Assembly (NCBI GenBank): GCA_016286785.1
Contig: JAEEUB010000001.1
Location: forward strand, 1 to 64,000
Source: Candidatus Saccharimonadota bacterium
GTDB lineage: Bacteria > Patescibacteriota > Saccharimonadia > Saccharimonadales > Saccharimonadaceae
DNA length: 64,000 nucleotides
Direction of reading: 5' to 3'
Part shown: positions 16,172 to 63,740 of the stretch, piece after piece
Numbering within the stretch: position 1 is the first letter of the stretch
How the letters are laid out: every line of letters starts with the position of its first letter
Translations under genes and position numbers: made by a program
Notes under the pieces: model-generated
Seen by the model: the letters and a program-made list of their open reading frames with translations, nothing else
Told to the model about the DNA's origin: nothing
The model's database searches: none

Positions 16172-19100
16172 CTACTGCTTTTCTAACGAAATAGTTACAA
16201 CTTCGCCGTTTAATTTAGCATCTTCCTTAAAAGAATAAACCTCTTTTTTGCTAACAGATTCCGCCCCAACCTCAGACTTTATTAGTCCCGTGTAATCCTT
16301 TGGTAAATCTATAGACACTGATAGTTTAATCTTATCTCCAGGAGCCAGTCCAGCGTGTTTGCGCGCCGATTGCACGGCACGAATCAGCTCGCGAGCCATT
16401 CCCTCTTCCCTAAGCTCCGGAGTCAAAGTCTTATCAAGTGCAAATTCTTTACCATTTTCAACTCTTTTAACGTTAACTTCCTCGGCAATAATTTGTTCAT
16501 AGAAACAATTTAATTTATCACCATCATAAATAAGTTTAGAAAGTGGCTGACGAATTTTAATCTGCTCTTCCTTCTCAGACTTCTGCATACGTAGAGCCAA
16601 AGCATCTGTAATAATCTGGCGAGTACGCGCCATATCAGACAAAACATCATCATGAGCCACCTCACCCGCCTCTGGCCAAGAAAGAAGATGTACGGACTCC
16701 CTACTCCCGGTTATCTTTTGGTATAGTTCCTCAGACAAAAACGGAGTAAATGGTGCTAGCAAGATAGCGGTCTTCTCAAGCATAAAGTAAAGCACACTAA
16801 AGGCCGCCTTTTTATCTACTAGGTCGTCATTCTTACTAAAACGTCGGCGTGAACGTCGTACATACCAGTTAGATAAATCATCAATAAACAAAATCACACC
16901 CTGAAGAGCTTTAGGAATATTATATTCTTCCATGCCAATCGTGATTTCATCGCGTAGTTGATAAAATCGATCAATAATCCATTCATCAAGCGGAGATTTA
17001 ATCTGAACCGAACCGTCAAAATCAGCAGAATCAAACCCTTCGACTTCGGCATAAGTAGTAAAGAAATCATATATATTCCAAAGCATCCCTAACTTTCGAC
17101 TAACATCAGATACATCCTTATCTAAAAGTGCAAAATCCTCACCCGAAAGCACCGGGCTAGAAAGCAGCAAAAAACGCAAAGCATCAGCAGAATATCGATC
17201 CATTAATTCATTAGGATCGGTAAAATTACCAAGAGATTTGCTCATCTTGCGACCATCATTCCCTGCCAAAGTTCCAGTCGTAATCACGTTCTTATATGCA
17301 TTTTTGTGGCCTTTTTTAGCCTCCGGGCCAAAAGCCCCAATATCCGCCAATGCCGTATTAACTGCGTGTAGATAATAGAACCACGCTCTTACTTGCCCCA
17401 CGTACTCCACAATAAAGTCAGCCGGATAATTAGCTTCAAACTTCTCTTTATTCTCAAACGGATAGTGTAGCTCGGCAAAAGGCATTGAGCCAGACTCAAA
17501 CCAGCAATCCAAAACTTTTTCAATGCGCGTAAAATGCTCGCCATTAATATCAAAGGTGATATCATCTACCCACGGCCGGTGATAATCCTCTAATTCCTTG
17601 CCTGATAATTCCTTTAATTCTGCATAACTTCCTACAACCTTAACCGACCCTTGGTCACCTTTCCAAACTGGCATCGCAGTAGCCCAAAACCTATCGCGTG
17701 AAAGGTTCCAATCTGGAGCAGCCTCAATATTATTTGCAAAGCGCCCATGTTTTAAATACTTTGGGAACCAGTTAATATTCTCGTTTTCACTTAGCATCAG
17801 CTGCTTTTGTCCCGCAACATCAAAGAACCAGCTCGGAAAAGCCCGATAAATAATGCGTTCCTTACTACGAGGGTTGAACGGATATTCGTGCTCAATGTAT
17901 TCAATCTTATAGATAATCCCCTTTTCCTCTAGGCATTTAGCGATAAACTTATTCCCCGCCCAAACTTGAATTCCGTTTTCATCCGTATCCCTAATTCCAA
18001 GCTCGTAAAGCTCTTTTGTCATCTCTGGAAGATAATAGCCATTTTCATCGAGACAATCCACAAAATCAACCTCATATTTTTGCACCAAATCGTAATCGTC
18101 TTCGCCATAAGCCGGCGCAATATGAACAATACCAGTGCCATCTTCGGCCGAAACAAAATCTCCAGGTAAAACCGTATAAGTGTCTTTACGGGCCACCGTC
18201 CCTTTATCACCACGCAGTCCAAGATCAAACAAACCATCAGCAACCTTGATAATGGGTTCATATTTTTCGCCAACCAAAGTCTTACCTTTAAAAGTTTTGA
18301 GTGGCTTTTTATCTTCAAACAATACTTTAGCTCGGTCCACAGCTAAGATATATTTTTCACCATTAACATCATATAGACCATATTTAAGCTCTGGACTAAC
18401 CGCGAGGCACATATTAGCAGGTAAAGTCCAAGGCGTAGTTGTCCAAGCCAAGAGATAAATATCTGAAGCTGGTAAATCTTTTTCTTCGGACCATAAGCCT
18501 GGGCGAGCGCCCTTGAGCGTGTCCGAAGAAAAATGATTCACGGCATCAGATAACTTAAACTTGACATATGCTGACGGATCCGTAACTTTCTGATAAGCAT
18601 CATTGTCCATCGTCACCTCAGCCTTAGAAACAGGAGTAGCAAATTTAGTATCATACATCAAAACCTTGCGACCTTCATAAATCTTACCCGCATCATAAAG
18701 CTGCTTAAATGCCCACCAAACCGATTCCATGTAATCTTTATTCATGGTGCGATAAGCATTATCAAAATCTACCCAACGCCCCACTCGGTCAATCGTATCG
18801 CGCCAGGTTTCCGAATTCGCCACCATCGATTCGCGCGCCTTTATAATATAATCTTCAAGACTCCATTTAGTGCCAATCTCGCGACGATCCGTAATACCAA
18901 GTTGTTTTTCCACAAAATTTTCAGCCGGTAGACCATGGCAATCCCAACCCCAACGCCGCTCTACCCTGTAGCCATTCATAGTCCAGTAACGTGGCACTGC
19001 ATCTTTTACGATAGAGCTAAGCAAAGTACCATGATGAGGATTCCCAGTAATAAATGGTGGCCCATCATAAAAAACATAAGATTTATCAATCGGTCTTAAT

Positions 19101-19198
19101 TCTACAGACTTCTCAAAAGTTTTATTCTTTTTCCACCACTTGCTGATGGCTTTTTCATATTCTACGGCCTTTCGCCGCTCTCCAGCTCTATATTTCAT
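16172..19198 (-). CDS. ileS: Isoleucyl-tRNA synthetase
   Basis: DGPPFITGNPHHGTLLS, WTTTPWTLPANM, KMSKSLGNFTDP; 1008 aa. TATAAT 6 nt before ATG. Confidence 0.96.
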   Translation of the reverse strand: MKYRAGERRKAVEYEKAISKWWKKNKTFEKSVELRPIDKSYVFYDGPPFITGNPHHGTLLSSIVKDAVPRYWTMNGYRVERRWGWDCHGLPAENFVEKQLGITDRREIGTKWSLEDYIIKARESMVANSETWRDTIDRVGRWVDFDNAYRTMNKDYMESVWWAFKQLYDAGKIYEGRKVLMYDTKFATPVSKAEVTMDNDAYQKVTDPSAYVKFKLSDAVNHFSSDTLKGARPGLWSEEKDLPASDIYLLAWTTTPWTLPANMCLAVSPELKYGLYDVNGEKYILAVDRAKVLFEDKKPLKTFKGKTLVGEKYEPIIKVADGLFDLGLRGDKGTVARKDTYTVLPGDFVSAEDGTGIVHIAPAYGEDDYDLVQKYEVDFVDCLDENGYYLPEMTKELYELGIRDTDENGIQVWAGNKFIAKCLEEKGIIYKIEYIEHEYPFNPRSKERIIYRAFPSWFFDVAGQKQLMLSENENINWFPKYLKHGRFANNIEAAPDWNLSRDRFWATAMPVWKGDQGSVKVVGSYAELKELSGKELEDYHRPWVDDITFDINGEHFTRIEKVLDCWFESGSMPFAELHYPFENKEKFEANYPADFIVEYVGQVRAWFYYLHAVNTALADIGAFGPEAKKGHKNAYKNVITTGTLAGNDGRKMSKSLGNFTDPNELMDRYSADALRFLLLSSPVLSGEDFALLDKDVSDVSRKLGMLWNIYDFFTTYAEVEGFDSADFDGSVQIKSPLDEWIIDRFYQLRDEITIGMEEYNIPKALQGVILFIDDLSNWYVRRSRRRFSKNDDLVDKKAAFSVLYFMLEKTAILLAPFTPFLSEELYQKITGSRESVHLLSWPEAGEVAHDDVLSDMARTRQIITDALALRMQKSEKEEQIKIRQPLSKLIYDGDKLNCFYEQIIAEEVNVKRVENGKEFALDKTLTPELREEGMARELIRAVQSARKHAGLAPGDKIKLSVSIDLPKDYTGLIKSEVGAESVSKKEVYSFKEDAKLNGEVVTISLEKQ
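18479..18533. repeat. Nested palindromic element, copy A (inside ileS)
   Basis: Perfect 13-bp arms TTTTTCTTCGGAC/GTCCGAAGAAAAA around the 29-nt core cataagcctgggcgagcgcccttgagcgt. Confidence 0.75.
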
Positions 19199-19353: not shown

Positions 19354-22233
19354 TTACAAATATTTCCTTAAATATTCTCCAGTAGGAGTTTTGGCGGATT
19401 TCGCCAGATCCTCAGGCGTGCCCTCGGCGCAAACTAATCCACCTTTTAGCCCCCCTTCTGGCCCCATGTCAATAATCCAGTCCGCAGATTTAATTACGTG
19501 AAGATTGTGTTCGATAATAATCATCGAATTTCCACCATCTACTAACCGATTCAAAATCGCAAGCAACCTCTTTACATCATCCGAGTGTAGCCCCGTCGTT
19601 GGCTCGTCCAAAATATACAGGGTCTTACCCGTAGATCTTCTAGCTAGCTCAGTCGCAAGCTTAATCCTCTGTGCCTCCCCGCCCGAAAAAGTTGTCGCTG
19701 GTTGTCCTAGCTTAATATACCCAAGCCCCACTTCCTGGATAGTCTTTAGTTTGTTACTAATCGAAGGAATATTGGCAAAAAACTCCGTCGCCTCATCAAT
19801 TGTCATGTCTAGCACTTCGGAAATATCTTTGCCTTTATATTTCACTTCCAAAGCCTCAGCATTGTACCTTTTACCGTGGCATTTGGGGCACGTTACATAA
19901 ACATCTGGCAAAAAATGCATCTCTATTTTATTTACACCATCACCTTGGCAATGCTCACATCTTCCGCCTTTTACATTAAACGAAAACCTACCTGCCTTAT
20001 ACCCACGCACCTCTGCTTCCGGCTGCCCCGCAAATAGTTCTCTAATCGCCGTAAACACACCCGTGTAAGTCGCTGGATTAGAACGTGGCGTCCGCCCAAT
20101 TGGTGACTGATCAATTACAATCGCTTTATTAATATTTTCTATTCCATCAATTCGCTCATGTGTACCAGATACTGTCTGTGCCCGATGCAACCTCGCTAGT
20201 AGCTCGTTAGCTAAAATCGTATTAACTAGCGTAGATTTCCCGCTTCCGGACACCCCACTCACTACTGTCATTACACCAAGCGGAAAGTGTACGTCAATAT
20301 TCTTTAAATTATTTTCGCGCGCACCTACCACTACTAACTCAGCCCCCTTCTTGGCTTTTCGCCTTTTTTTAGGCGTCGGAATCTTCATCTCGCCAGACAA
20401 ATATTTACCAGTGATTGAATTTGGATTCTTCATTACTTCATCCGGAGTTCCAGCGGCCACTAACCTTCCGCCTTGTTTCCCTGCCCCAGGTCCAATATCA
20501 ATAATATAATCAGATTCCAGCATAGTATCTTCGTCATGTTCTACTACTAATACTGTATTTTTTAAATCTCTTAGATGCTTTAAGGTTGCAATCAACTTAT
20601 TATTGTCTCTCTGATGTAAGCCAATCGAAGGCTCGTCTAGAACATAAAGCACGCCCGTAAGCCCCTAACCAAGCTGAGTAGCCAAACGAATCCTCTGCGC
20701 CTCGCCACCAGAAAGCGTATTTGCTGCTCTTCCTAACTCCAAATACCCAAGCCCCACGTCTTGCATAAATTTCACTCGTTCGCGAATTTCTTTTAATATT
20801 GGAGCCGCAATCAAATTTTCAGCCTCCGAAAACCCTAAATCCTGCGACAAAACTTCAAGCGTAGCATCTACGTCCAAATTACACATATCCACGATATTTA
20901 AATCGTGTATTGTTACGGCTAGTACCGCCGGCTTTAATCTCGCACCATGACACTCTTGACACTCATGCACCCGCATAAAACGTTCAATATCTTTTTTCAT
21001 GAATTCAGAAATCTTCGGATCGTTGTATCTACGCTCCAGTGTCGGGATCACCCCCTCATACGTAGTTTCATACACAGTACCATCTGCAAATCTTCCCGAA
21101 CCACTAATCCTCATTTCATACTTTTCGTCGCCCGTACCATACATTATTAATTGCCGCTGTTCTTCCGTTAATTCGCCAATTGGTACATGTACCGAAAATC
21201 CATGTTTTTGCGCTACCTGCATCAGCCTTTTCATCCACCAAGAGTCCTGTTGTACCCTATTAAATGGTCGAATTCCACCTTCTGCTATCGTTAAATTTTT
21301 GTTAAACACTAGTCCCGGATCAATCTCCATTCTCGACCCAAGCCCCGTACATACCGGGCAAGCCCCCTCTGGCGCATTAAAACTAAAGAGTCTAGGAGTT
21401 AATTCTGGAATTAACTCATCAGGATGATCAGGGCAAGCATAACGCTGTGAATAAGTTAATACTTCAGTATTCTCTGCCGAAATTCTAGATTCCCCCACCG
21501 CAGTAGAATTATCTACTACGCGAAGTAGCTGAATAATTCCCTGTCCCATCTCAAGAGCCTGCTCGATCGAGCTAGTAATTCGACTTCTCAGCTCCGGATT
21601 TAGCACGAATCTGTCCACCACTATTTCTATATCATGACGTTCATTTTTGTTTAATTCCGGAAATTCGTCTAAAGCATAAATAATTCCATCCACCCTAACT
21701 CTTGAATAACCCTTAGCTGTGTATTGCTCTGGAATATGTAAAAACTCACCTTTTTTCGCCGATACAACTGGAGCAAGTAACATCAGTTTAGCTCCAAATG
21801 GCAATTTCATTACCTCATTTACGATATCCTCCACACTACGCCGACTCACCTCTTTATGACAAATTGGACAATGCGGCACCCCAACCCTCGCAAAAAGAAG
21901 CCTCAGATAATCATATACTTCCGTCACCGTAGCCACCGTAGAACGCGGATTTCTAGAAGTTGATTTCTGATCAATCGAAATCGCCGGGCTAAGCCCCGTA
22001 ATAGAATCCACCTCAGGCTTATCCATCACCCCAAGAAACATCCTCGCGTACGAGCTTAGTGATTCTACATACCGTCTCTGACCTTCGGCATAGATAGTAT
22101 CAAAAGCAAGGGACGATTTCCCCGACCCAGATAGTCCAGTAATAATTACTAGCTTATCTCGCGGAATATCCACATTAAGATCAGCTAAATTATTCTGCCT
22201 TGCTCCTCTTACTTTTATATAATTGTCATTCAT
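19354..22233 (-). pseudogene. uvrA: Excinuclease ABC subunit A, interrupted by an in-frame TAG at 20665-20667
   Basis: Two ORFs in the same frame: ...GGEAQRIRLATQLG* and [21 protein letters not shown]... Walker [13 protein letters not shown] and [12 protein letters not shown] both present. Confidence 0.92.
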
Positions 22234-41197: not shown

Positions 41198-41737
41198 ATG
41201 GAAAATGATATATATCAAGAAAGATATTTAAAACATCAACTAGATAAAAAAGAAGAACTCATAAAGATTATGAAGGAACGTCACTCGAATCGTCGTTTTG
41301 ATGATAAGCCAATACCACAAGAAATAATCGATGAGTTAATTTCCGTCGTAGAATTGGCCCCTTCAAGTTGTGATCGTAAAGCAATCAAAGTCGAAGTTAT
41401 AACCGATCGAGACAAAAAAGCACTTCTTGGAGGAATTCTAGTTGGTGGAGTAGGTTGGATTCATAGAGCACCAGCCATCTTGCTAATTACGGCAGATCCC
41501 AAAGCTTACAAAGCCGAAGGTGAAATAAAGTTTATGCCTTATCTAGATGGCGGAGTCGTTTCTCAGCAACTTGCACTTACTGCCACTTCACTCGGAATTC
41601 ACGGCTGTTTTGCCAATCCGAATATTAGAGATTTTAATGTAGATCATTACCACAAAATTTTTGGTCCAAATATCCTTACGATGGCATTCGCTATCGGATA
41701 TCCTATCGAAGAAGACTCATCCGATAAAGAAAAATAG
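41198..41737 (+). CDS. Nitroreductase family protein
   Basis: MKERHSNRRFDDKPIPQEIIDELISVVELAPSSCDRKAIKVEVI. TATAAT 6 nt before ATG. Confidence 0.85.
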   Translation: MENDIYQERYLKHQLDKKEELIKIMKERHSNRRFDDKPIPQEIIDELISVVELAPSSCDRKAIKVEVITDRDKKALLGGILVGGVGWIHRAPAILLITADPKAYKAEGEIKFMPYLDGGVVSQQLALTATSLGIHGCFANPNIRDFNVDHYHKIFGPNILTMAFAIGYPIEEDSSDKEK

Positions 41738-43412
41738 CAATCTGTCGTCTTGTAATTATTACACCGTCTGCAAATTCACCTTCTCTGGCGTAATACTTTG
41801 TTATTCCTTTAGTGTAAGCCCAGTTTATAGCATTCGCCATTTCAATATTGCTTGGTAAATCTTCCAAATTACTATCATAAGCCAACGGTTCATCTTCGTA
41901 TCTCCATAAGAATATCGCAACTTCTCTTCTAGTTATCTGCATATATGGTGCATATTCACCAGGCGAACTATAGTATTTTGTAGTACCGTTGTTGTAAGCC
42001 CAAATAATAGCCTTTGTTCCCAACTCATCATTAACTGATAAATCTTCAAATATTTCACTAGCATTTGAAATATCAACATCTGGTGAACCAGCAAGTCTCC
42101 ATAAGAATATCGCAACTTCTCTTCTAGTTATCTGCATATATGGTGCATATTCACCAGGCGAACTATAGTATTTTGTAATACCGTTGTTGTAAGCCCAATC
42201 AATCGCTAACCGGCCATAGTAGTCATCTGGTAAATCATTAAAAGTCTCATCAGCATCAACTGGTATATCATTTAATAAATACAATGCCAAGGCCGTCTCA
42301 CCTCTCGATAATAATCCTGGCGTTTCCTTATCGACAGTTTCTAATATATTATCAATATCATCAACCTTCTTATCGGGATATTTATTTTGAAATCTAATTA
42401 AGAATTTGTTTAATTGTGCAGTGTCAACTTTTGTATCGGGAGAAAACTCACCCCTTTTGGAATAATAATTCGTTATACCATTTTCATACATCCATCTTAT
42501 AGCTTCAGCACTAAGATTGTCTTCTGGCATATCACAAAAGATATCACAACCAGAAAGTTCATCCTCGTCGGTTATTCCACCAAACCAATCCTCAAATAGC
42601 TTATAAAAATTCAAGTTTCCATACGCATTACAACCATCACTCCATCCACTAAGTGTTGCTGCATTTGGCTGATAAGGCGTATAACGATACAATGCAGAAG
42701 TCGCCAAATTTCTAATATTCACCACCGAACCACCACAAGAAGCTGACGGATTATATTGTACATAGTTGTTTCCAAGCGGATAATTTGTCCATCCTCCATT
42801 AAGTACGGTTCTAAATAGTGCAGCTGCATTTCGAATCTGATTTTTTAATCCATAATACTCCGATGAGCATGCCGCCGTATCAGGACATCCGTAACCAGTA
42901 GCCGATCTATACTGCTGACTATGCGGGAAAGTGTCTGTTACTAAACTTTGCTCTTTTTCAAGCAGTACCAATAAAACCTGCGGATTAATTCGATAATCCT
43001 GCGCCGCTTGATAAATTATATGAGCAGCCGTCCCACCATCAAATACTTCATCTGCCATACATACGAAATGACCATCTCTTACGTGCCAAGTTCTAGGTGG
43101 AGATATCTCCGAGAAATAAGAGACCTTATCTCCAGCCGTATATCTTCCAAGACTCGTATCCCAACAAGAATTCTTAGATTCGAGAAAAGACTGAATCTGA
43201 GATTCACTCATTGAATCATAATTACTCATCTGAAAATCCGAAATAATATAACCCGGATCAAATGCAGATACATTTGCCGCACCTGCATCATTATTTAATA
43301 TTTCGTGTTTTTGCGCCAAAATAGTAAAACTAAATACAGCAACAAAAACCCCACCCACTAGATACCATATTCTTTTATCTCGTCGCTTTATTATACTATG
43401 CTTTATACTCAT
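41703..43412 (-). CDS. Secreted/surface protein with C-terminal SLH-like repeats
   Basis: N-terminal TM; repeats AINWAYxxGITKYYxxxGEYAPYMQITRREVAIFLWR; SLH-like. Confidence 0.78.
   Translation of the reverse strand: MSIKHSIIKRRDKRIWYLVGGVFVAVFSFTILAQKHEILNNDAGAANVSAFDPGYIISDFQMSNYDSMSESQIQSFLESKNSCWDTSLGRYTAGDKVSYFSEISPPRTWHVRDGHFVCMADEVFDGGTAAHIIYQAAQDYRINPQVLLVLLEKEQSLVTDTFPHSQQYRSATGYGCPDTAACSSEYYGLKNQIRNAAALFRTVLNGGWTNYPLGNNYVQYNPSASCGGSVVNIRNLATSALYRYTPYQPNAATLSGWSDGCNAYGNLNFYKLFEDWFGGITDEDELSGCDIFCDMPEDNLSAEAIRWMYENGITNYYSKRGEFSPDTKVDTAQLNKFLIRFQNKYPDKKVDDIDNILETVDKETPGLLSRGETALALYLLNDIPVDADETFNDLPDDYYGRLAIDWAYNNGITKYYSSPGEYAPYMQITRREVAIFLWRLAGSPDVDISNASEIFEDLSVNDELGTKAIIWAYNNGTTKYYSSPGEYAPYMQITRREVAIFLWRYEDEPLAYDSNLEDLPSNIEMANAINWAYTKGITKYYAREGEFADGVIITRRQIAIFLYRMSLLR
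41901..42002. repeat. Direct repeat copy 1 within the SLH region
   Basis: ~102 bp, one mismatch relative to 42096-42197 (tgtagtacc versus tgtaatacc). Confidence 0.85.
42096..42197. repeat. Direct repeat copy 2 within the SLH region
   Basis: See 41901-42002. Confidence 0.85.
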
Positions 43413-45810: not shown

Positions 45811-47553
45811 ATGGAAAAAAATAAATCAATTGATGGACTACGTCCTCGTCGTGTCTCAAAAAATACGGCCACCCCTAATAGTTCTGTAAAAAAGGTCGTA
45901 AAAAAATCCTCGCCTAGTAAAAAAACCACCGTTAAAACTGCACTAAAAACCAAGAGTTCTGCAAAAACTACAAAACCCCGCAAAACCACATCAATCAAAG
46001 TTCAGTCCAAAACTCCTAAGTCAACTAAAACTAAACCAGAAGAATCAACTAATTTAATCGAGACCGAATCTTTAAATACTATAAAAGAATCAGAAGCCGT
46101 AGAAGATTTTTTAAAACCAGTACAAGCATTTGACTTTAATAGCGAAAACGGCAAACTAGAAGTCGCCGAAAATAATCCAAAAAACAATCTGGTCCAGAAA
46201 AAACAACTAGAAAAAAATAAAAAACAGAAAAAACCTATGTCTAAAAAACGTAAAATTACCCTTTCGATCATCCTAATTATTCTACTCCTAGTCCTTGGCG
46301 CCGGCATCGCGTTTATCATTTGGGGTAACGATATTATCGCTAAAATCACTGGCGGCCAAGGCAATATCCTAGATTTAGTCTTCCAGGAAGAAAAATACGA
46401 ACCCCTAAAAACCGACGAAAACGGCCGCACCAATATTCTAGCATTTGGTACAAGCGGCTATAATATGGACGGCGAAGAAGGTAACGGCACCCATGACGGA
46501 GCCCAACTTACCGACTCCATTATGGTAATCAGTCTAGATCAAGAAACTGGCGATCTCGCCATGCTTTCCCTTCCCCGCGATCTTAAAGCTTCCCCCACTT
46601 GCACCGCTACTGGCAAAATCAACGAAGTTTACTGGTGTAATAATATGAATAACGACAACGAACAAGCCGGCGCCGAAGCTCTCATGGAAGAAGTAAGCCG
46701 AATCTTAGGAATCGATTTCCAATATTACGCTCACCTTAACTGGGGTGCTCTCGTACAAATCGTAAACACACTAGGCGGCATTAATGTTACTCTAGACGAA
46801 GACATCGCTGACTACGGTTGGACAAATGCCGTATTCGAAGCCGGCAAAGAATACACAATCGACGGAGAACAAGCCCTTGGTCTTGCCCGTGCTCGCCACG
46901 GAACCGCTTCTGGCGATTTTACCCGTGGTGCCTCTCAGCAAAAAATTCTCATTGGTATCAAAGACAAGATTTTCGAAAATGGCCTCGCTATTACCGATAT
47001 TATTAATTTAGCCGGCACTCTAGGTGACAATCTACGCACCAACTTTTCTCTTGATGAAATGAGGACCCTTGCACACCTTATGTCGGATTTTGATTTTGAT
47101 TCCGCCCGCCAAGTTTCTCTTATCGAACCAGAAATGCTCATGACGACCGGTACAATCAATGGTATTTCTTACGTCCTACCTGCTGGCGGTGCCAACTATT
47201 ATACAAGGATTCAAAATCATGTTGCCAAAATGTTTAGTAGCAATCCAAGAGATTACGAAGATTATTCTATTCTAGTTCTTAACGCAACCGAAACTCCTGG
47301 TCTTGCTACAGCCGAAAAGAACAACCTAGAAGAAGACGAATACCAAAACATCTATATAGACGACGCCCCAGAAGGTGAATACGAAGGCGACTATATATTA
47401 TATATGGTTAAAGACACTGCCCCAGGCGTCAAAAAACTCCTCGAACAAAAATATAACACCACCGCCAAATCACTCGAAGAGCTTCCGACTAACATCAGTC
47501 AAGATTATCATTTCGTAATTATCATCAATAAAACAGAATCTGAAGCCAAATAA
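45811..47553 (+). CDS. LytR-CpsA-Psr (LCP) family cell-wall polymer ligase
   Basis: DSIMVISLDQETGDLAMLSLPRDLK; LGGINVTLDEDI; GEQALGLARARHG. Confidence 0.92.
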   Translation: MEKNKSIDGLRPRRVSKNTATPNSSVKKVVKKSSPSKKTTVKTALKTKSSAKTTKPRKTTSIKVQSKTPKSTKTKPEESTNLIETESLNTIKESEAVEDFLKPVQAFDFNSENGKLEVAENNPKNNLVQKKQLEKNKKQKKPMSKKRKITLSIILIILLLVLGAGIAFIIWGNDIIAKITGGQGNILDLVFQEEKYEPLKTDENGRTNILAFGTSGYNMDGEEGNGTHDGAQLTDSIMVISLDQETGDLAMLSLPRDLKASPTCTATGKINEVYWCNNMNNDNEQAGAEALMEEVSRILGIDFQYYAHLNWGALVQIVNTLGGINVTLDEDIADYGWTNAVFEAGKEYTIDGEQALGLARARHGTASGDFTRGASQQKILIGIKDKIFENGLAITDIINLAGTLGDNLRTNFSLDEMRTLAHLMSDFDFDSARQVSLIEPEMLMTTGTINGISYVLPAGGANYYTRIQNHVAKMFSSNPRDYEDYSILVLNATETPGLATAEKNNLEEDEYQNIYIDDAPEGEYEGDYILYMVKDTAPGVKKLLEQKYNTTAKSLEELPTNISQDYHFVIIINKTESEAK

Positions 47554-47616
47554 AATATATTTAACCAGCAATAAAACCCCATTCATTATAATTGAATTTC
47601 AATAAAGAAGTAGAAC

Positions 47617-47675
47617 AATACTTTTTGGAACCATAAGCTTGGCCGAACGGCCTTGAGTGTGTTCCAAAAAGTATT
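47617..47675. repeat. Nested palindromic element, copy B (convergent intergenic region)
   Basis: Perfect 15-bp arms AATACTTTTTGGAAC/GTTCCAAAAAGTATT around the 29-nt core cataagcttggccgaacggccttgagtgt. Confidence 0.78.
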
Positions 47676-47686
47676 ATTTACTTCGC

Positions 47687-48151
47687 TTATTCAACATCCA
47701 CCTTACTAATAATAAGCTTTCTTTCTCTTCCCTCCCCTTCCGAATGAGTCTCAATATCCGAATAATCCTGTGCTACCTTATGTACAATCCTTCTATCCGC
47801 CGCATTAAGATCGAGTATCATATTTTCACCGGTCTTACGTACTTTCGCAATCCACCCTTCTGCTTTTTCCGCAATCCTGTCAGCCCTCTGCTTCTTGTAG
47901 TTTGCTACATCTACATTTACCCTCGTAATCTCAGCTTCTTTCGATACTAAAGCCATCGAAACAATATGCTGCAACGCTCTTAGATTATCCGCATTTCGCC
48001 CAATTAAGAGCGAATTAAGCGATGTAGACGGTACCGACAGTTGAATCACCTCATCGTCAATCGTAGAATACACTGCTACATTAATCCCAAAGAAACTAAG
48101 CAGGTCCTCCAGGTATTTTGCTGCAAATCTAATTGATTCGTCTTTATTCAT
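47687..48151 (-). CDS. jag: KH-R3H RNA-binding protein Jag/KhpB
   Basis: KH (LLIGRNADNLRALQHIVSMAL) and R3H (LDLNAADRRIVHKVAQDYSDIETHSEGEGRERKLIIS); next to yidC. Confidence 0.88.
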   Translation of the reverse strand: MNKDESIRFAAKYLEDLLSFFGINVAVYSTIDDEVIQLSVPSTSLNSLLIGRNADNLRALQHIVSMALVSKEAEITRVNVDVANYKKQRADRIAEKAEGWIAKVRKTGENMILDLNAADRRIVHKVAQDYSDIETHSEGEGRERKLIISKVDVE

Positions 48152-63450: not shown

Positions 63451-63461
63451 CAAATGCAACT

Positions 63462-63628
63462 TGGCGGAAGAGAGAGGATTCGCACCAAAGGTCCGAATCC
63501 GTATACTTTTTTCAAATGAAATTTGGCGGAAGAGAGAGGACTCGCACCGAAGGTCCGAATCCGTATCTTTTTCATCTTGTTATATCTAGCGGAAGAGAGA
63601 GGATTCGCACCAAAGGTCCGAATCCGTA
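63462..63628 (-). repeat. Three tandem tRNA-Ser 3'-end-derived hairpin units
   Basis: Minus-strand unit TACGGATTCGGACCTTYGGTGCGARTCCTCTCTCTTCCGCYA; unit starts at 63462, 63524, 63587, then the tRNA at 63650 (62-63 bp period). Confidence 0.88.
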
Positions 63629-63649
63629 CTTTTTTCATCTTGTTATATC

Positions 63650-63740
63650 TGGCGGAAGAGAGAGGATTCGAACCTCCGAACGGGTCAACCCCGTCACACG
63701 ATTTCGAGTCGTGCGCCTTCAACCACTCGGCCACTCTTCC
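63650..63740 (-). tRNA. tRNA-Ser(CGA), CCA encoded
   Basis: GGAAGAGTGGCCGAGTGGTTGAAGGCGCACGACTCGAAATCGTGTGACGGGGTTGACCCGTTCGGAGGTTCGAATCCTCTCTCTTCCGCCA; anticodon CGA; long variable arm. Confidence 0.93.

Follow-up and report, generated by a model that had tools for sequence, protein, structure and literature searches.

The closest relatives of IleS from one Saccharibacteria MAG are found mostly in ruminant guts, and the coding sequence of its ileS gene carries a nested hairpin. This raises the question of whether the segment belongs to the synthetase, acts as an RNA or entered the gene as an element.

A palindrome inside ileS and its intergenic counterpart

The hairpin was studied in a stretch of 64,000 nt (the window) that includes the whole gene (Table 1). 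As the first-pass annotation described, TTTTTCTTCGGAC and GTCCGAAGAAAAA form a perfect 13-bp inverted repeat around CATAAGCCTGGGCGAGCGCCCTTGAGCGT, with an inner GGGC/GCCC stem inside, and translation of the (-) strand of ileS gives SSDTLKGARPGLWSEEK, between YVKFKL and YLLAWTTTPWTLPAN. The annotation's 55-nt extent (18479-18533) placed this hairpin correctly, but the unit is larger: 69 nt according to the covariance model, with a weaker repeat reaching 18460-18552. The reported resemblance to an intergenic sequence is real, since 24 of the 29 nt in the core of the ileS copy (copy A) are identical in a second copy (copy B), located between ORFs 45811-47553 (+) and 47687-48151 (-). Of the five mismatches, four form two compensated pairs, at tip positions 12/19 and 16/27, which makes the copies equivalent in structure. 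Compared to shuffled sequences, folding of the coding strand gives z = -6.5 for copy A, with none of 200 shuffles reaching so low a value, and the better strand of copy B gives z = -6.4.

Table 1 Location of the ileS gene, the two T element copies and their parts in the window
Feature	Position	Strand	Evidence
ileS, isoleucyl-tRNA synthetase, 1008 aa, insertion host	16172..19198	(-)	ORF and translation; IleRS structure matches, E down to 1.8e-168
T element copy A, 69-nt unit, tip orientation + (antisense to ileS)	18472..18540	(+)	Covariance model, own genome, 75.5 bits, E 1.1e-16
Copy A, left arm, perfect 13 bp, TTTTTCTTCGGAC	18479..18491	(+)	Sequence; hairpin scan
Copy A, conserved 29-nt tip, CATAAGCCTGGGCGAGCGCCCTTGAGCGT	18492..18520	(+)	Pattern search; conservation over 138 copies
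Copy A, right arm, perfect 13 bp, GTCCGAAGAAAAA	18521..18533	(+)	Sequence; hairpin scan
Extended imperfect palindrome, 32-nt arms, 78% complementary	18460..18552	(.)	Repeat search
T element copy B, 69-nt unit, intergenic	47612..47680	(+)	Covariance model, 79.1 bits, E 1.2e-17; ORF list
Copy B, tip, CATAAGCTTGGCCGAACGGCCTTGAGTGT	47632..47660	(+)	Pattern search

The insertion lies in frame in a loop directly ahead of the editing-domain motif WTTTPWTLPAN. In 80 related ileS loci, DPSAY and WTTTPW are mostly 23-29 residues apart, with 51 in the window and as many as 80 in some loci; most congeneric IleS (23-25 aa) have no counterpart of the segment, and its conservation across homologues is not borne out. 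The excess in length of the window stretch over element-free congeners ranges from +57 to +84 nt, every value being a multiple of 3, and pairs of filled and unfilled loci differ by 69 nt (L077/L079) and 78 nt (window/L054). Structure comparison revealed no counterpart of IleRS residues ~222-246 in solved IleRS chains. The AlphaFold model of the whole protein is poor overall (mean pLDDT 62) and leaves the insert disordered between strands 203-216 and 247-253; for the surface loop expected by the first-pass annotation, it thus lends weak support to residues 217-246 being a loop between two strands. The insertion occupies a loop that tolerates it, ahead of the CP1 editing domain, and adds ~26 residues with the frame kept; the inserted peptide probably has no function of its own. 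A second insertion hotspot is found around codon 700 of ileS: L206 has a T element there, and many relatives have inserts that differ in length.

The neighbourhood has other peculiarities. The uvrA gene is broken by an in-frame TAG at 20665-20667 (-) into ORFs 20665-22233 and 19354-20652; the break reads LG*GLTG, where serine is usual, and could be a nonsense mutation or an assembly error. Elsewhere in the window, three tandem partial copies of ~63 nt resembling the 3' part of tRNA-Ser occupy 63459-63740, beside tRNA-Ser(cga) (63650-63740), and a 111-nt direct duplication (96% identical; 41901-42011 and 42096-42206) lies within ORF 41703-43412 (-).

Distribution and anatomy of the T element

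The core pattern has exactly two matches in the window and none in 100 shuffles of it. The scan of the genome proposed in the first-pass annotation retrieved further copies: six exact tips in the 767 kb (none with a reversed-pattern control), which the covariance model raised to nine by adding three diverged ones. Copies also exist elsewhere in the genus, the exact-type tip being present in 55 of 147 congeneric genomes and in none of 182 genomes from the family's other genera. Only the exact tip is strictly confined to one genus, as the covariance model also matches related tips in a few of those genera (e.g., G148 and G198). A subfamily, T-prime (TAAGACTTGG...CCCGGAGCG), is common in the genus, and T-prime-like hairpins with long perfect arms were detected in two distant families of the phylum (L287:1474-1543 and L288:1475-1543). 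The tips and hairpins outside the genus may be ancient relatives or horizontal arrivals. No viral contig carried the tip with the two patterns searched, and the open-access papers searched contained no account of such elements from Saccharibacteria or Patescibacteria.

The tip hardly varies over the 145 distinct copies (CRTAAGCYTGGSCGARCGSCCTTGAGYGT), and its covarying positions keep Watson-Crick pairs in 138/138 (c12-c19) and 132/138 (c16-c27) copies. Where they join the tip, the arms have GGAC/GTCC; two Watson-Crick pairs or a tandem GA/GA mismatch come next. A weak consensus covers their inner ~18 nt (a pyrimidine run from -7 to -12 and AA at -17/-18), and the copy alignment gives none beyond ~20 nt. 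Conservation is limited to the tip and a short consensus of the inner arm, and the arms as such do not form a conserved repeat.

Although the arms (~20 bp) differ from copy to copy, their complementarity is kept. A pairing score of at least 10 was reached by 137 of the 145 copies with their own arms, but only by 18 when arms were swapped among copies. Outer arms past 20 nt pair too in nearly all copies (median score 8 versus 2 swapped). In a gapless alignment of 49 copies, two-sided changes fill 278 cells against 87 in shuffled data, any slid register gives far fewer, and compensatory two-sided change affects all 16 arm pairs; these 49 copies were selected for good pairing, and the unselected set of 138 agrees. 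In that larger set, 83 copies (~60%) lie inside ORFs of at least 150 aa, 35 in sense and 48 in antisense orientation. A subset of copies (L117, L124, L127, L129, L028 and L033) has, outside the arms, a further conserved internal-loop motif (GGGTGGYYGAAA ... TTCRGMCAGGACCC) and perhaps represents the fuller ancestral element.

Turnover at orthologous sites

An orthologous site could be found for 68 T copies by matching only the flanks in the fetched sequences. The same tip was present in 39 cases, an inverted tip in 13, another insert in 21 and a short or empty site in 38; these categories overlap, since a copy may be compared with more than one relative. The other inserts are in many cases palindromes that have conserved tips of their own, chiefly from a family that we call Z. 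The clearest tip replacement opposes L125 and L151, whose arms are homologous and differ by about four compensated changes, while their tips are the 29-nt T tip and a ~70-nt Z tip, respectively. No target-site duplication was seen between filled and empty sites, the closest empty sites being only ~75-85% identical, a divergence that also leaves the exact element boundaries uncertain. The idea that the flank is copied in inverted orientation upon insertion, hinted at by L118/L142 and L064/L078, was abandoned because L070/L075 keeps the opposite arm; deletion relics better explain these cases.

Across the genus, the ileS loop itself has hosted at least five tip families. Filled loci carry T (in antisense in the window and in sense in L077), a T-like insert (L083) or the unrelated X, Y, Z and W; the window and L083 were assigned to T by eye, their automatic labels on the tree being "other". 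On the tree of the remaining IleS sequence, filled and unfilled loci are intermixed in an apparently random way: the no-insert label requires 17 changes, the mean for shuffled labels being 17.3, and strongly supported branches force at least 10 of the changes in insert state.

Hairpins of this kind are not limited to T. A scan of 397 kb of another genome (G084) plus the window revealed 55 strong hairpins, and 200 kb of the same genome contained 25 against two in the shuffled control. They group into several families, in each of which the tip is conserved and the arms vary. Members of other families occur throughout L136-L155 of G084 (e.g., L138:19199-19364, L151:18170-18271, L136:16740-16911 and L141:567-630), and the Z tip is also found in ileS of relatives.

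Origin, maintenance and relation to known elements

Several scenarios may explain these observations. We favor, with a probability of roughly 0.7, that copy A is a small non-autonomous palindromic DNA element (the T element) of ~69 nt, made up of a conserved 29-nt tip and ~20-nt variable complementary arms and maintained at the DNA level. That IleS simply has a native variable loop, palindromic by chance, would agree with the variation of its length across the genus, but it is refuted by the further copies, the identical 29-nt tip being found at unrelated sites in many genes, and the fold goes far beyond that of shuffled sequence; we give this reading practically no credence. A structured RNA, either a regulatory element or ribozyme-like, conserved for its function in the transcript, has more in its favor: the conserved unpaired tip bases, the two-sided R-Y contact c16-c27 and the compensatory stems all resemble an RNA family. 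Nevertheless, Rfam offers no family to explain it, as none of the elements had a match at the gathering threshold; the chance matches that did appear were of microRNA type and far below it. G-U pairs are not in significant excess over A-C in well-registered stems (42 versus 30, p = 0.2), while the ratio in tRNA stems from the same genomes is 54:0, although this control has a partial bias, since its predictor gives scores to standard pairs alone. Since G-U is not favored, genes contain copies in both orientations and the tip can be inverted at the same site, maintenance at the DNA rather than the RNA level is indicated; this is evidence and not proof, and it makes the RNA reading improbable.

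Alternatively, the mobile unit could be the tip alone, inserted into or exchanged on existing hairpins whose arms belong to the site. The homologous arms of L125/L151 under different tips, the 21 T copies facing a different insert and the pairing of arms past 20 nt, where consensus is lacking, would all fit. Yet, the weak consensus of the inner ~18 nt implies that some arm travels with the tip, the inner arms are missing at the empty site of L118/L142, and arm identity at inverted sites barely exceeds the null (6.5 versus 5.0 of 12). We consider this alternative unlikely, although clearly less so than the RNA. A broader reading, a class of selfish DNA in which unrelated tip families would be inserted, inverted and swapped on persistent variable arms, essential genes included, through single-stranded hairpins and a putative enzyme, seems equally doubtful.

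The hairpin would be maintained by a DNA-level process. One possibility is that an enzyme acting in trans recognizes the tip of the hairpin, once this is extruded as a single strand, and then copies or inserts the hairpin; another is that strand switching during replication corrects imperfect arms to perfect ones, and both may combine. The arms would accordingly stay complementary either because mobility needs the hairpin or through this correction. Transposition as such is inferred, near-identical strains having offered no case of a new insertion. The host protein would survive because the length of the unit is a multiple of 3, stops are absent from four of its six reading frames and only insertions in loops pass selection. 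Two candidate drivers were rejected. The Y1 transposase of RAYT/IS200 (PF01797) does not track the T copies, being absent from the own genome and from 139 of 144 congeners, copy-rich ones included, and present in the other five. Reverse transcriptase (PF00078) is absent from the own genome and showed no association among congeners (Fisher p = 0.30).

The combination of a constant tip with a stem that is site-specific yet self-complementary suggests a little-known kind of selfish DNA. Protein-coding palindromes have so far been regarded as a Rickettsia peculiarity; Saccharibacteria provide a rich parallel, in which there are several families, the copies number in the hundreds and an essential gene serves as recurrent landing pad. 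Their variable arms and constant tips are natural replicates to separate selection on the hairpin from strand-switch correction, the tip is a concrete target in the search for the mobilizing protein, and odd insertions of 20-60 residues in housekeeping proteins of these genomes find an explanation useful to annotation.

Among known systems, REP/REPIN-RAYT elements are also short, dispersed, non-autonomous hairpins plausibly handled as single-stranded DNA. REPs are mostly extragenic and have conserved stems. No cognate Y1 transposase (TnpA_REP) tracks the T copies, unlike in that system. MITEs are likewise small, non-autonomous and palindromic and can create in-frame fusions, but the T element is conserved at its center instead of its ends, its arms are not conserved terminal repeats, no parental transposase was found in the searches for PF01797 and PF00078, and no target duplication was seen at the diverged empty sites. 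The coding palindromes of Nematomorpha mitochondria are similar in that arms within protein genes stay complementary and gains and losses are frequent; their arms encode conserved protein and active arm conversion has been proposed (PMC6649704). No shared tip appears to be described for them, whereas the T element has a conserved tip and occupies dispensable loops.

The closest likeness is to the Rickettsia palindromic elements (RPEs), palindromic repeats of ~150 bp from several families, inserted in frame in unrelated protein genes (review PMC10969869) and reported, in the discussion of PMC6649704, to lose repeat identity over time. Both are selfish palindromes of several families, in frame in unrelated protein genes of a host-dependent bacterium with a reduced genome. 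The resemblance proposed in the first-pass annotation thus stands for the frame-keeping insertion into genes (83 of 138 copies) but not for being an RPE: the T element has 69 nt (covariance model and ileS comparison) instead of ~150 bp, its arms are kept paired by two-sided change where PMC6649704 reports decay, and its tips are inverted or replaced at orthologous sites. The best reading, from a comparison with RPEs by description, is that the T element is RPE-like, a variant of the protein-coding palindromic elements that should not be filed as an RPE.
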